From Candidatus Aquiluna sp. UB-MaderosW2red (GTDB taxonomy: Bacteria; Actinomycetota; Actinomycetes; Actinomycetales; Microbacteriaceae), in the NCBI RefSeq assembly GCF_900100865.1, contig NZ_LT627734.1:992001-1056000 (forward strand): a stretch of DNA of 64,000 nucleotides. The letters run 5' to 3'. The position numbers were made by a program, and so were the translations under genes. The first letter of the stretch is position 1, and every line of letters starts with the position of its first letter. The notes under the pieces were generated by a model. That model saw only the letters and a list, made by a program, of their open reading frames with translations. It ran no database searches and was not told the origin of the DNA. Shown piece after piece: positions 52,211 through 57,620 of the stretch.

Positions 52211-52284
52211 GGGGCGTTAGCTCAGCTGGTTAGAGCAGCGGACTCATAATCCGTCGGTCGCGGGTTCAAGTCCCGCACGCCCCA
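52211..52284 (+). tRNA. tRNA-Met (CAT), elongator type probable
   Basis: The acceptor arm is GGGGCGT with ACGCCCC, the D arm is GCTC...GAGC, the anticodon stem is GCGGA/TCCGT with loop CTCATAA, and the T arm is GCGGG-TTCAAGT-CCCGC. The discriminator is A and no CCA is encoded. The anticodon CAT is at 52245-52247. The initiator is excluded because the first acceptor pair is G-C and the anticodon stem lacks three G-C pairs. A lysidine-modified tRNA-Ile2 cannot be fully excluded by eye, but the body resembles actinobacterial elongator Met tRNAs. Confidence 0.9.
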
Positions 52285-52641
52285 CTCAAGTAATGTCTCT
52301 AGTCGCTGAGGACTAACTAGCTGTTGACTAGACCTAAAGAGCCAAAGTCTTGGTCATTTATTCGGGCGGTGGTGGACTAATTATTAGTTTCAATTTGTGG
52401 TTATTAATCCCCCTGGCACCTAGGGTTCGGATGGACCGCGGATAGGAGAGGCTGCCCATTGCAATTGGGTAAGACCCGGATTAGCGATTGCCGGAATTTC
52501 TAATCGCCTCAGAAATGGATCTTCAGAGCTTGAAGCTCTTTCATGCCCAAAGGTCCCAATGAAGCTGGCTACTTAAAGAAGTAGAAGCCTGTTGCTGGAT
52601 AAATTTGAAGGACGGCAATTGCAAGACATTTCGGATGTGTA
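52285..52641. other. Long intergenic region with several inverted repeats, no gene recognised
   Basis: About 360 bp without a believable gene. Possible stems are GCGATT...AATCGC (around 52482-52506) and CCCA-TTGCAAT-TGGG (around 52456-52470). AGAGC-TTGAA-GCTCT followed by TTTC (around 52525-52542) is terminator-like but with a weak T run. This density of stems could mean an untranslated RNA or a structured leader, but no known riboswitch, SRP, 6S, RNase P or tmRNA core could be matched. Confidence 0.4.
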
Positions 52642-52676
52642 TTGACAAACACGAACTAAATTACATGTATTATACT
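52642..52676 (+). promoter_or_regulatory. Promoter candidate of sbtA
   Basis: A consensus -35 TTGACA (52642-52647) is followed by overlapping -10-like hexamers TATTAT (52668-52673) and TATACT (52671-52676). The spacing to these is 20 or 23 bp, longer than the usual 17, so the exact -10 is unsure. The small palindrome TACATGTA lies between them and may be a regulator site. The sbtA ATG is about 30 bp downstream. Confidence 0.5.
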
Positions 52677-52706
52677 TCCCAAGATAGATCACTAGGGAGT
52701 AACGAC

Positions 52707-53744
52707 ATGGACAGCGACATACTGCAGAATCTGACTGACCCGGCGATCCTCTTTTTCGCAGTTGGGGTGCTAATCGGAACGATTCGATCGAACCTGGAGA
52801 TTCCAGCACCTGTGACAAAGTTCCTATCCCTTTACCTCCTAATGGCAATTGGCTTCAAGGGCGGCCAGGCCTTGAATCAAGCGGGTCTGGGTGGTGATGG
52901 CCTGAAGGTTGTAGGCGTGTCACTAGTGCTCGCAATCGCCATGCCAGCCATTTTGTTTCCAATTCTAAGACGCAAAGTTAACCACTTTGATGCCGCAGCG
53001 ATCGCGGCAACCTATGGATCTGTGAGCGCAGTGACTTTTGTTACAGCCTCACAATTCTTGGTTAGCCAAGGCGATGCGGCAGGTGGGTATCTGACCATTG
53101 CATTGGTAGTGATGGAGTCTCCCGCCATAATCATGGCGGTACTACTTGCAACCTGGGTTCGCAACCGCGCTCCTGCCGAAACGGGCGCCCTTCGTGACGA
53201 TCACTTCAATAAGACTCCGACCACGGATGGACAGCCAGGAAGCGGCAAGGCCCTGTCAATCAAATCTGTACTCCATGAAGCCTTCACTGACGGTGCTCAC
53301 CTTCTACTGATAGGGAGCGTAGTGGTGGGAGCCCTGAGTGGTCCGGTAGGCGGGGAGACCATGGCGCCTTTTGTGGTGGACCTTTTTAAGGGTGTGCTGG
53401 CATTTTTTCTCTTAGACATGGGTCTACTGGTGGCTCGTCAATTGCGACAAGTAAGAGATGTGGGTCCGTTTTTGATTGGTTTTGGAATCGTGGCTCCGCT
53501 GGTTGGTGCGTCTTTGGCTTTGGGACTAAGTGCGCTATTAGGCTTTAGCGTCGGAGATGCCACGCTGCTAGCGGTGCTTGGCGCTAGTGGTAGTTATATC
53601 GTGGTTCCTGCGGTCTTGAGATACGCCATCCCCGAGGCGCGACCGAGTCGATATTTCACCATGTCGTTGGCCATAACTTTTCCTTTCAACATTATTTTCG
53701 GGATACCGCTCTACTACGCTGCCGCTCAACTGATTCTTGGATAG
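52707..53744 (+). CDS. SbtA-type sodium-dependent bicarbonate transporter
   Basis: A 345-residue membrane protein of the SbtA superfamily, about ten helices in two inverted halves joined by a polar cytoplasmic loop near residues 150-185. DPAILFFAVGVLIGTIRSNLEIP, LYLLMAIGFKGGQAL, ATYGSVSAVTFVTA and LGASGSYIVVPAVLRYAIPEARPSRYFTMSLAITFPFNI match SbtA. ATG 52707 follows AGGGAG and gives the family N-terminus; longer frames add non-homologous sequence. No sbtB-like PII gene is adjacent, so fast allosteric control, if any, is encoded elsewhere. Bicarbonate as substrate is inferred from family. Confidence 0.88.
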   Translation: MDSDILQNLTDPAILFFAVGVLIGTIRSNLEIPAPVTKFLSLYLLMAIGFKGGQALNQAGLGGDGLKVVGVSLVLAIAMPAILFPILRRKVNHFDAAAIAATYGSVSAVTFVTASQFLVSQGDAAGGYLTIALVVMESPAIIMAVLLATWVRNRAPAETGALRDDHFNKTPTTDGQPGSGKALSIKSVLHEAFTDGAHLLLIGSVVVGALSGPVGGETMAPFVVDLFKGVLAFFLLDMGLLVARQLRQVRDVGPFLIGFGIVAPLVGASLALGLSALLGFSVGDATLLAVLGASGSYIVVPAVLRYAIPEARPSRYFTMSLAITFPFNIIFGIPLYYAAAQLILG

Positions 53745-53831: not shown

Positions 53832-54884
53832 GTGGCAGTGATCATAGAAATCGGTACGGCGCTTCCTGCCTATGTTCATGATCAATCTGAAGTAACCGAG
53901 GTGCTGGCAAGTCAGCTAGCAAAATCGGATTCCGCCAGGGCAGTGCTCAGCCGGATTCACGAAGCCACGAAGATTGAGCAACGCCATTTTGTGATGCCAA
54001 TTCAAGATTATGTGAGCGTTGATAGCTTCTCTAAAAGCAACGGGCTCTTTACTGAGCATGCACTTGCACTTGCCGCGCAAGCAACCCAAAGCGCCCTGAG
54101 CAAGGCGGGGCTAGAAGCCAAACAAGTCGATTACCTATTCTTTACGACGGTTACTGGCGTCGGCGCGCCGTCCTTAGATGTATTGCTTGCTTCTCAATTG
54201 GGCTTTAGATCCGACCTAAAGCGCATACCGAGTTTTGGTCTTGGGTGCGCTGGGGGAGCCGCGGGAATTGCGCGAGTTGCCGATTACCTTAGGGGGCACC
54301 CAACCGAGATTGCTTTAGTCGTCTCGGTCGAACTCTGCTCTTTAACGATTCAGTGGCAAGATCGCTCGATGGCCAATTTTGTCGGTACAGGAATCTTTGG
54401 GGACGGCGCGGCAACGGTTGTGATGGTGGGCGAAGATCACCCGCTGGCAAGTAACGGGATTGGCGTAAGTGCGTCTCGCAGTATCCTCTACCCCGACACC
54501 GAGCAGATGATTGGCTGGCAGATAGGAACCTCCGGGATGTCGCTAATGCTAGAAGCCGGGGTGCCTGAGATAATTGGGCAGAATTTTGCCCGGGACGTCG
54601 ATGCTTTTTTAGCCGCAAGCGGATCTTCTAGGGCTGAGGTGGATGTTTGGGTGGCGCACCCGGGTGGTCCGAAGATCCTCGATGGTTTCACCAGCGCCCT
54701 TGGTCTTGAAAATGATGAGTTATCGGCCAGCTGGGGGGTCATGAAGCGGGCGGGTAATATGTCCTCTGCCGCGGTGTTACATGTGCTGTCGGAAATGTTC
54801 ACTCAACCAAGCAAATCCAAGGGGCTGCTATTTGCCCTAGGTCCTGGCGTGACAGTCGAATTGGTTTTATTGGAGTGGTCATGA
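53832..54884 (+). CDS. Type III polyketide synthase (chalcone/stilbene synthase family)
   Basis: A 350-residue thiolase-fold enzyme with the Cys-His-Asn triad intact: C139 in GLGCAGGAAG, H276 in VAHPGGPKIL and N309 in RAGNMSSAA. Bacterial homologues such as SrsA extend a fatty acyl starter with malonyl or methylmalonyl units into alkylresorcinols or pyrones. With a methyltransferase and flavoprotein downstream, a phenolic or quinone lipid is the likely product (inference). GTG start. Its stop overlaps the next ATG (ATGA). Confidence 0.92.
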   Translation: MAVIIEIGTALPAYVHDQSEVTEVLASQLAKSDSARAVLSRIHEATKIEQRHFVMPIQDYVSVDSFSKSNGLFTEHALALAAQATQSALSKAGLEAKQVDYLFFTTVTGVGAPSLDVLLASQLGFRSDLKRIPSFGLGCAGGAAGIARVADYLRGHPTEIALVVSVELCSLTIQWQDRSMANFVGTGIFGDGAATVVMVGEDHPLASNGIGVSASRSILYPDTEQMIGWQIGTSGMSLMLEAGVPEIIGQNFARDVDAFLAASGSSRAEVDVWVAHPGGPKILDGFTSALGLENDELSASWGVMKRAGNMSSAAVLHVLSEMFTQPSKSKGLLFALGPGVTVELVLLEWS

Positions 54885-55417
54885 TTCTCTCGATTAGCGT
54901 CTTACTTTTTGTTCTATTGATTCTGGCTACCGGTGGGGAGAGAATTTACGAGCTAGTGGTATCAAAGAGAAACGCGAAACTCGCATTTGCGTTGGGGGCC
55001 ATTGAGTACGGTCGGGGTCACTTGCCCTTCATGATAATTCTTCACGTTGGAATGCTCCTAGGTGCCATTGTTGAGGTGCTGGTTTTGAACCGGCCATTTC
55101 TAGGAAGCGTTGGCTGGATAATCTTATGCTTGGCGCTTTTGTGTCAGGCCGCCCGTTATTGGGTCATTTGGGCCTTGGGCACTCAATGGAACACCAGAGT
55201 AATAGTCATCCCAGGTGCCAAGCGCGTTACGCGAGGCCCTTATGCCTTTTCCTGGTTGAAACATCCCAATTACTGGATAGTTGCGGTTGAGGGGATCGTT
55301 TTGCCGCTGGTTCACTCGGCTTGGATTACCGCCATTGTGTTCACCATTCTGAACGCAATTCTGCTTCTGGGTTTCCGAATTCCAACCGAAAATCGAGCTT
55401 TGAAGGCCCTGTTATGA
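54881..55417 (+). CDS. Isoprenylcysteine carboxyl methyltransferase-family protein (SrsB-like)
   Basis: A 178-residue integral membrane methyltransferase of the ICMT/PEMT-like fold, with about five hydrophobic helices. TQWNTRVIVIPGAKRVTRGPYAFSWLKHPNYWIVAVEGIVLPL holds the family's SAM-site RGPY and HPNY. In Streptomyces, the equivalent SrsB methylates the phenolic lipid ring. ATG 54881 overlaps the PKS stop and follows GGAG; a GTG at 54875 is possible. Coupled on both sides by ATGA overlaps. Confidence 0.88.
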   Translation: MILSISVLLFVLLILATGGERIYELVVSKRNAKLAFALGAIEYGRGHLPFMIILHVGMLLGAIVEVLVLNRPFLGSVGWIILCLALLCQAARYWVIWALGTQWNTRVIVIPGAKRVTRGPYAFSWLKHPNYWIVAVEGIVLPLVHSAWITAIVFTILNAILLLGFRIPTENRALKALL

Positions 55418-56457
55418 GAACTTTTAATGTTCTAGTTATTGGCGGTGGGCCTGTAGGTATGGCGGCTGCGATAGAAGCTCGGCTCAGCGGGCTATCTGCC
55501 GGGATTATCGAACAAAGAGCGGGCACCGTAGACAAGGCTTGCGGTGAAGGGCTAATGCCTGGGGCGTTACCCCTACTGGAACGTCTGGGCGTGACCCCGG
55601 TGGGGCGCGACTTGGTTGGAGTCACCTATCGAAGCGGGGATCATTCGGTCACGCACCGTTTCTCCTCAGGATCTGGAATGGGCATGCGAAGAACGATTCT
55701 TCACGATGCGCTTCGATCACGTGCTAATGAACTAGGGGTGATTTTTGTCGAGGACTCACTTCAGACCCTTCGTTCCCATGAAAAGCACGTTGTCGTGGAT
55801 TGTCAAGGTGGCGAGTCAATTCGAGGGGATTACCTGATTGGTGCTGATGGTCTTCATTCCACGGTTTCGCGGCAGGCTGGCTTATTTCGAGAAGTATCAG
55901 TCGGCAGGACAAAAAGATATGGCATTCGGCAACACTTTCAGATTGCGCCCTGGTCGGAATTCATTGAGGTTTATTACACAAAATACGCTGAGGTTTACAT
56001 CACACCCGTGTCCAACGATCAGGTTGGAGTCGCAGTTCTGGGGCCAAGGGCCACGGACTTCGAGGCAACAATAGCGAGCCTTCCCGAATTGGCTGCGAGG
56101 TTAGAAGGGGCAGCCCCGAGCTCTCAGCGAAGTGGCGCAGGCTCCTTTCCACAACTCACGGCCGCTCGAACTAAGGGGAGAGTGCTTTTAGTCGGAGATG
56201 CCTCCGGGTATGTTGACGCGATAACGGGGGAGGGTCTTAGGCTTGGCTTTGCTCAGGCTAGGGCCGCGGTCGAATGCATTGTTTTGGGCCAACCACAAAT
56301 GTATGAGCTTCGCTGGCGACAAGTTAGTCGAGACTTTAGGGTGTTGACTCGGGGCTTGATAACACTCGCAAATTCACCCCTTCGAATGGCCATAGTTCCA
56401 TTGGCGAGTCGATTTCCGTCATTATTTGGCTTCATAGTCAATCGGTTGGCGCGCTAG
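55414..56457 (+). CDS. FAD-dependent oxidoreductase (SrsC-like hydroxylase or geranylgeranyl-reductase-like)
   Basis: A 347-residue flavoprotein. N-terminal dinucleotide fold FNVLVIGGGPVGMAAAIEARLSG, a DG motif in GDYLIGADGLHSTVSRQAG, and the FAD ribityl motif RVLLVGDASGYVDAITGEGLRLGFAQA. It belongs to the group containing aromatic hydroxylases and prenyl reductases. In the srs pathway the third enzyme hydroxylates the ring to a quinone; with a UbiA partner, prenyl reduction is an alternative. ATG 55414 overlaps the methyltransferase stop. Confidence 0.88.
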   Translation: MRTFNVLVIGGGPVGMAAAIEARLSGLSAGIIEQRAGTVDKACGEGLMPGALPLLERLGVTPVGRDLVGVTYRSGDHSVTHRFSSGSGMGMRRTILHDALRSRANELGVIFVEDSLQTLRSHEKHVVVDCQGGESIRGDYLIGADGLHSTVSRQAGLFREVSVGRTKRYGIRQHFQIAPWSEFIEVYYTKYAEVYITPVSNDQVGVAVLGPRATDFEATIASLPELAARLEGAAPSSQRSGAGSFPQLTAARTKGRVLLVGDASGYVDAITGEGLRLGFAQARAAVECIVLGQPQMYELRWRQVSRDFRVLTRGLITLANSPLRMAIVPLASRFPSLFGFIVNRLAR

Positions 56458-56463
56458 TTCCTC

Positions 56464-57288
56464 ATGCCTAGGTTGATTTCACTTTTTAGATCCAGCCATC
56501 CGATGCCTTCGCTATCAGTGGCAGGATTTGCCTTTTTGTTTGGCCTGGGTATCGGCCTACCGGTCGGTAAATCTGCGCTAGCGGGTCTTGCAGTTTTGCT
56601 TCAACAGCTCTCTGTGGGCCTATCTAACGACTGGCTTGATCTGAAGCGCGATAAAGCGGTCGGTCGCAAGGATAAGCCGGTTGCGAAGGGCGAAATCTCA
56701 AGCTCCTTAGTGCGAAACTCCTCATTTATTTCCGGATTAGCTGCTTTATTGATTGCTCTTTTGCTCGGCGCCCCGGAGGGGGCGTGGATGATATTTATGC
56801 TTGCCGTCGGGTGGTCATATAACCTCGGCTTGAAATCGAACTGGCTCTCGGTTGCGCCCTATGCTGTGGGATTTGGAATTCTGCCCGTCTTTGTGACTCT
56901 TGCTATGACCGAGCCGATTTTCCCACCAGCTTGGATAGTTCTGGTGGCTTCACTCCTTGGAGTGTCCGCTCACTTTGCGAACGCATTGCCGGATCTGCTC
57001 GATGATAAGGCGACGGGAGTGAGGGCCTTGCCGCATATTCTCGGACAGCGCCTCTCGGCGATAATTATCGCCGTCACGGCCTTAGCAGCGAGCCTAATCG
57101 TCGTGACTCAGGCAAGTAATTTAGAGTCGACAACTGGTTTAATCGGCTTGATTCTGACCGTTGCACTCGCGGGTACTGCGAGCATCTTATCTTTGAGGCC
57201 TGAGCCGCCCAGGATTGTTTTCCCGCTTCTCATCTTGGCATCCCTGGTAAACGTTATTCTTCTGATGTTGGGAACCGGGTCTCTCTAG
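56464..57288 (+). CDS. UbiA family prenyltransferase
   Basis: A 274-residue membrane protein with about eight helices. The first aspartate motif is NDWLDLKRD (55-63), and a second Asp-rich motif is DLLDDKATG with PHILGQ downstream. UbiA enzymes attach an isoprenoid chain to an aromatic ring. Six bases after the flavoprotein gene, so it probably prenylates the product of the type III PKS, or uses another acceptor. The 3' end overlaps the regulator gene by four bases. Confidence 0.9.
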   Translation: MPRLISLFRSSHPMPSLSVAGFAFLFGLGIGLPVGKSALAGLAVLLQQLSVGLSNDWLDLKRDKAVGRKDKPVAKGEISSSLVRNSSFISGLAALLIALLLGAPEGAWMIFMLAVGWSYNLGLKSNWLSVAPYAVGFGILPVFVTLAMTEPIFPPAWIVLVASLLGVSAHFANALPDLLDDKATGVRALPHILGQRLSAIIIAVTALAASLIVVTQASNLESTTGLIGLILTVALAGTASILSLRPEPPRIVFPLLILASLVNVILLMLGTGSL

Positions 57289-57620
57289 TCCAGTAGTGTT
57301 TTTTTACCGTCCTGGCTCTTGGTCAAGGTTAAGAAGATTTCAATCAACTCCCCGACGCTGTGGTCTGACTCAGCTGGGTGGCGAAAGGGTAATTCGCGAT
57401 GCACGGTATAACTATTTTGCCTGCCCATTTTCTGCTTAGAGACATAACCTGCTAGTTCCAAATCACTCACTATTGACTGGGCTGTGCGTTCGGTCACCGA
57501 GGCCGCAAGTGCCAAATCTTTGATCTTTGTGCCGGGCTCTCTAGCTATTAGAAGAAGTAGTCGCGCATGGTTGGTCAGTAAAGTCCATCTTCTTGCGGTT
57601 TGGCCGTCCTGAGGCGTCAT
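57285..57620 (-). CDS. Winged-helix transcriptional regulator (MarR/ArsR-like)
   Basis: A 111-residue DNA-binding protein. LTNHARLLLLIAREPGTKIKDLALAASVTERTAQSIVSDLELAGYVSKQKMGRQNSYTVHRELPFRHP reads as a winged helix: helix-turn-helix, then a beta wing. No extra ligand domain is visible beyond a short helical C-terminus. It is convergent with the UbiA gene and 43 bp downstream of icd on the same strand, so its targets are not clear: the PKS cluster is the likely one by proximity. Confidence 0.8.
   Translation of the reverse strand: MTPQDGQTARRWTLLTNHARLLLLIAREPGTKIKDLALAASVTERTAQSIVSDLELAGYVSKQKMGRQNSYTVHRELPFRHPAESDHSVGELIEIFLTLTKSQDGKKTLLD

Follow-up and report, generated by a model that had tools for sequence, protein, structure and literature searches.

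A probable agqABCD-type operon in a small-genome planktonic actinobacterium, with a predicted prenylated phenolic or quinone lipid as product

The four-gene locus and its setting

The window analysed here, a 64,000-nucleotide stretch of the genome of Candidatus Aquiluna sp. UB-MaderosW2red, contains four closely spaced genes, A to D, delimited from open reading frames (ORFs) and Pfam domains:

53832..54884, + strand: A, type III polyketide synthase (PKS; srsA/agqA/pkqA-like)
54881..55417, + strand: B, ICMT-family integral-membrane methyltransferase (srsB/agqB-like)
55414..56457, + strand: C, FAD-dependent hydroxylase-like flavoprotein (srsC/agqC-like)
56464..57288, + strand: D, UbiA-superfamily prenyltransferase (agqD-like)

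Gene A starts at a GTG with GGGAG 9 nt upstream. A and B are joined by an ATGA overlap (ATG 54881, TGA 54882; the mechanical ORF call starts B at GTG 54875), B and C by a second (ATG 55414), and D follows C on the same strand after a gap of 6 bp. The domains of all four proteins exceed the curated Pfam cut-offs. A sequence-only reading of this DNA had proposed the same four gene assignments, with which the Pfam domains agree, as well as the overlaps and the short gap, which the ORF coordinates confirm, and a host with a small genome, which proves to be 1,663,804 bp on one contig and to encode a single type III PKS. A scan of the operon for promoters and terminators returned signals at chance level. 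Upstream, positions 52211-53744 hold a tRNA-Met gene (52211-52285) and then a gene for a putative Na+/bicarbonate transporter (Sbt_1). Downstream, a small MarR-like winged-helix gene (57285-57620) is convergent with D and overlaps its end by 4 bp; this gene was not found in the corresponding loci of Aquiluna relatives.

The closest copies in a genome-collection scan lie in Candidatus Aquiluna, where five loci keep the A-B-C-D order at amino-acid identities to the window proteins of 67-69% (A), 72-73% (B), 71-72% (C) and 62-67% (D). The ratio dN/dS among these five loci is 0.05-0.20 for all four genes, which together with the constant order indicates that the operon is not a chance arrangement and is under purifying selection. 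In the relatives the operon lies 120-200 bp downstream of a tRNA-Met that matches the window tRNA at 70 of 75 bases; in the window the Sbt_1-family gene separates the two. Gene A is present in 6 of the 23 genomes of the genus. The common tRNA-Met setting, the Aquiluna copies and this partial distribution point to a locus that is probably old in the genus and has been lost in part of it, and such patchy retention offers natural pairs of strains with and without the operon. Among the papers searched, none names Aquiluna together with a type III PKS.

Polyketide synthase, methyltransferase and flavoprotein

Protein A contains both Chal_sti_synt domains (N, 2e-21; C, 4e-22) and the Cys-His-Asn triad of type III PKSs, with C139, H276 and N309 conserved in 67, 68 and 68 of 68 sequences, respectively. 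Its Trp229 lines up with the GW motif of Pks11. This residue is Trp in 54 of the 68 family members and occupies a position like that of ArsB Trp281, where Trp has been linked to resorcinol formation. Pks11 of M. tuberculosis, which is annotated as forming alkyl-alpha-pyrones, is the closest solved structure to A (297 bits) and likewise has the GW-motif Trp, so that Trp229 alone is not decisive between resorcinol and pyrone. That A yields alkyl-alpha-pyrones instead of resorcinols is nevertheless very improbable, as B and C are co-conserved with A almost everywhere and correspond to the published enzymes of alkylresorcinol ring methylation and hydroxylation.

Proteins B and C match the Pfam families ICMT (2.6e-24) and FAD_binding_3 (1.8e-19). 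The PKS-ICMT-flavoprotein set is widespread in Microbacteriaceae and occurs also in family f6 (some 5-6 Mb genomes of the same class), in scattered other phyla, and in five loci (L091-L095, family f5) presumed from class and gene content to be Streptomyces. The window proteins share 49% (A), 62% (B) and 59% (C) identity with those of an srsABC-type locus (L088) that we take to come from Marisediminicola antarctica ZS314. The srsABC operon of this strain, which is 51-63% identical to srsABC of Streptomyces griseus, has been assigned a role in making, methylating and hydroxylating alkylresorcinols (PMC6669644). The parallel with srsABC drawn from the window alone thus holds for A, B and C, which are orthologous and stand in the same order, as expected of members of the srsABC/pkqABC group; the published operon has three genes, whereas the window has D as a fourth.

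The flavoprotein merits closer consideration, as it had been recognized at the outset that C might be a plain geranylgeranyl reductase. Its best NCBIfam model is indeed the geranylgeranyl reductase superfamily TIGR02032, at 109.5 bits and below the curated cut-off of 158.8, much as a Streptomyces protein in the srsC position scores 107.6 bits. A geranylgeranyl reductase-like flavoprotein that adjoins a D relative in another locus (L101) reaches 171.9 bits and has a YxW stretch that C lacks. C carries the motif DKACGEGLMP and has this block, DGLHS and PW...YxTPV in common with the Streptomyces srsC-position proteins, at 44-47% identity. We therefore rejected the plain reductase assignment, and on these sequence features C is of the srsC type. 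The predicted structure of C (pLDDT 89) has the general flavin monooxygenase/halogenase/reductase fold, which does not by itself settle the reaction: in a fold search halogenases scored highest (Z 37), followed by p-hydroxybenzoate hydroxylase (Z 33) and geranylgeranyl reductases (Z 31-32), and since they share one fold the search did not tell hydroxylase, halogenase and reductase apart.

Gene D and its linkage to the polyketide synthase

Protein D belongs to the UbiA superfamily by its Pfam match (1.4e-26; 93.8 bits, cut-off 34.2) and by two Asp-rich motifs, N55-D56..D59..D63 and D177..D181, all six residues of which are invariant. The host genome encodes five UbiA proteins: D, a CtaB (L001, 440 bits) and a MenA (L002, 346 bits, adjoining menD), both over cut-off, and two of carotenoid type (L004 and L005), each near a phytoene-desaturase-like gene. 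A reading in which D is one more housekeeping UbiA enzyme, for menaquinone, heme O or carotenoids, and C a geranylgeranyl reductase, so that the cluster serves ordinary lipid metabolism, could appeal to the promiscuity of the superfamily and to TIGR02032 as the best model for C. We regard it as extremely unlikely, given that CtaB, MenA and two carotenoid-type enzymes are encoded elsewhere in the genome and that C scores like its Streptomyces counterpart and has no YxW stretch. D itself passes no MenA, CtaB or carotenoid cut-off; its best MenA model gives 25.2 bits against an NCBIfam equivalog cut-off of 555, and no NCBIfam heme O synthase (CtaB) model matches it at E <= 0.001. In a quick tree, the deep branches of which are weak, D clusters with the PKS-linked D proteins of Aquiluna at 99% SH-aLRT. 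MenA, CtaB and carotenoid UbiA were accordingly rejected as identities for D, and the placement among menaquinone or heme A prenyltransferases that would have undone the sequence-only reading is not what was found.

Beyond the genus, a D relative adjoins the PKS in each of the five Streptomyces loci examined, three loci of family f16, an order-level relative (G204) and a further genus (g30). The Streptomyces clusters, with which a comparison had been suggested, resemble the window both in the srsC-position proteins and in the neighbor of the PKS. Within a sample of 120 Microbacteriaceae genomes, 46 with a window-type PKS and 74 without, a D-family gene is present in 45/46 of the former versus 24/74 of the latter (Fisher p = 3e-14, shared ancestry ignored). 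D lies within 10 kb of A in only 3 of the 45 genomes with both genes and is unlinked in 42: in 19 the two genes share a contig but stand more than 100 kb apart, and in 23 they are on different contigs, which in fragmented assemblies does not strictly rule out proximity. Across the phylum sample, a type III PKS occurs in 30 of 42 genomes with D versus 53 of 354 without. The converse situation, a D-family gene without a window-type PKS, is seen in 12 of the 42 D genomes of that sample and in 3/9 within the genus, which suggests that D may have another acceptor. The association of D with the PKS is thus strong and not exclusive: co-occurrence ties D to the pathway, and the genomes lacking the PKS leave room for a second use.

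These data bear on whether the operon might instead make an unprenylated alkylquinone electron carrier of the PkqABC/SrsABC type, with D a mere neighbor acting on a different acceptor. The three-gene operons suffice for alkylquinones, and both the 42 unlinked cases and the three genus genomes with D and no PKS are compatible with this view. However, the presence of D tracks that of the PKS, D adjoins PKS genes in the window and in the Aquiluna, g30, Streptomyces, f16 and G204 loci, and in the window it begins just past C on the same strand. We consider the unprenylated alternative unlikely, if better founded than the pyrone one. More tentatively, and with the odds somewhat against it, an unlinked D might act in trans to complete the pathway of those Microbacteriaceae clusters that are annotated as three-gene srsABC operons, so that most would lead to prenylated lipids, with Aquiluna-type small-genome lineages holding all four genes in one operon. 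The co-occurrence of unlinked D implies that three-gene alkylresorcinol annotations may miss a last step.

Several individual loci add detail to this picture. Twenty Microbacteriaceae loci in which D is unlinked from the srs-type operon (L118-L137) have no constant partner gene beside D. The D-family genes of the three genus genomes (L138, L139 and L140) are 56-57% identical to D, the PKS is absent genome-wide, and no remnants of A, B or C were seen near D in the loci read, either here or among the 12 D genomes of the phylum sample that lack the PKS. In a small genome without the PKS, one D-family gene (G112:C68:971-1663) contains an in-frame TGA and is possibly decaying.

Known systems and the proposed pathway

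A type III PKS, a methyltransferase, a flavin hydroxylase and a UbiA enzyme encoded together, as in the window, make up the agqABCD type of operon. AgqD is reportedly UbiA-like, and AgqB and AgqC are said to be a methyltransferase and a monooxygenase. The agqABCD genes of Actinoplanes missouriensis direct formation of alkyl-O-dihydrogeranyl-methoxyhydroquinones (Awakawa 2011, as cited in PMC7692728, PMC9967187 and PMC10896814); PMC10896814 has the AgqA products prenylated and hydroxylated, and PMC7692728 names agqA to agqD orthologs in Phytohabitans. The likeness lies in the same four enzyme types, a type III PKS with three tailoring genes including one for prenylation. The agq assignment is probable and is drawn from the gene content and from srsABC orthologs, with proteins of Streptomyces, Marisediminicola and Aquiluna relatives taken for comparison in place of AgqA-D from A. 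missouriensis. Other systems are similar in part. The polyketide quinone operons pkqABC, known from Mycobacterium smegmatis and Streptomyces sp. MNU77 and credited with a respiratory electron-carrier role, have the same PKS, methyltransferase and oxidoreductase set as A-B-C but are described with three genes and no named prenyltransferase (PMC9927152). The same four gene types are adjacent in Gephyromycinifex aptenodytis, where a cluster of UbiA, stilbene synthase, ICMT and FAD oxygenase was proposed to act in angucyclinone formation and the UbiA gene flanks the PKS at its opposite end (PMC8779670). The UbiA gene had been taken as an addition to srsABC; that novelty does not hold, since agqABCD includes UbiA, a D relative adjoins the PKS in each of the five Streptomyces loci, and PMC8779670 describes a UbiA gene next to an srs-type cluster. 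This kind of cluster has been known since 2011 from Actinoplanes, and what is new here is an agqABCD-type operon in a small-genome planktonic bacterium.

We propose, with a probability of roughly three in four, that the operon makes a prenylated phenolic or quinone membrane lipid through the successive action of A to D. In this scheme A would condense a fatty acyl-CoA with malonyl-CoA units to a 5-alkylresorcinol, B would transfer a methyl group to a ring hydroxyl, and C would hydroxylate the ring to give a methoxy-alkylhydroquinone oxidisable to the quinone. The membrane enzyme D would then add a prenyl chain, and the resulting phenolic or quinone membrane lipid would be doubly lipophilic. 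The steps of A to C presumably follow published srs/pkq/agq chemistry by orthology, and for prenylation by D the model would be agq, on grounds of homology and of linkage. A methoxy-alkylhydroquinone or quinone carrying a prenyl chain is the most likely product. The prenylated phenolic lipid suggested by the sequence-only reading is in this way supported by domains, orthology and D-PKS linkage, with prenylation as its inferred element. This would place such a pathway in aquatic actinobacteria with small genomes, which retain few genes for specialised metabolites.

The host and its predicted product differ from the Actinoplanes system in one further respect. The Actinoplanes lipid is dihydro, whereas no protein of the host genome reaches the geranylgeranyl-reductase family cut-off, and the prenyl chain is therefore predicted to be unsaturated. 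In two f16-family genomes (L101:3922-8556 and L102:4434-9071) D is followed by a flavoprotein and then by A-B-C, and this flavoprotein could be the source of a dihydro-prenyl step like that of Actinoplanes.
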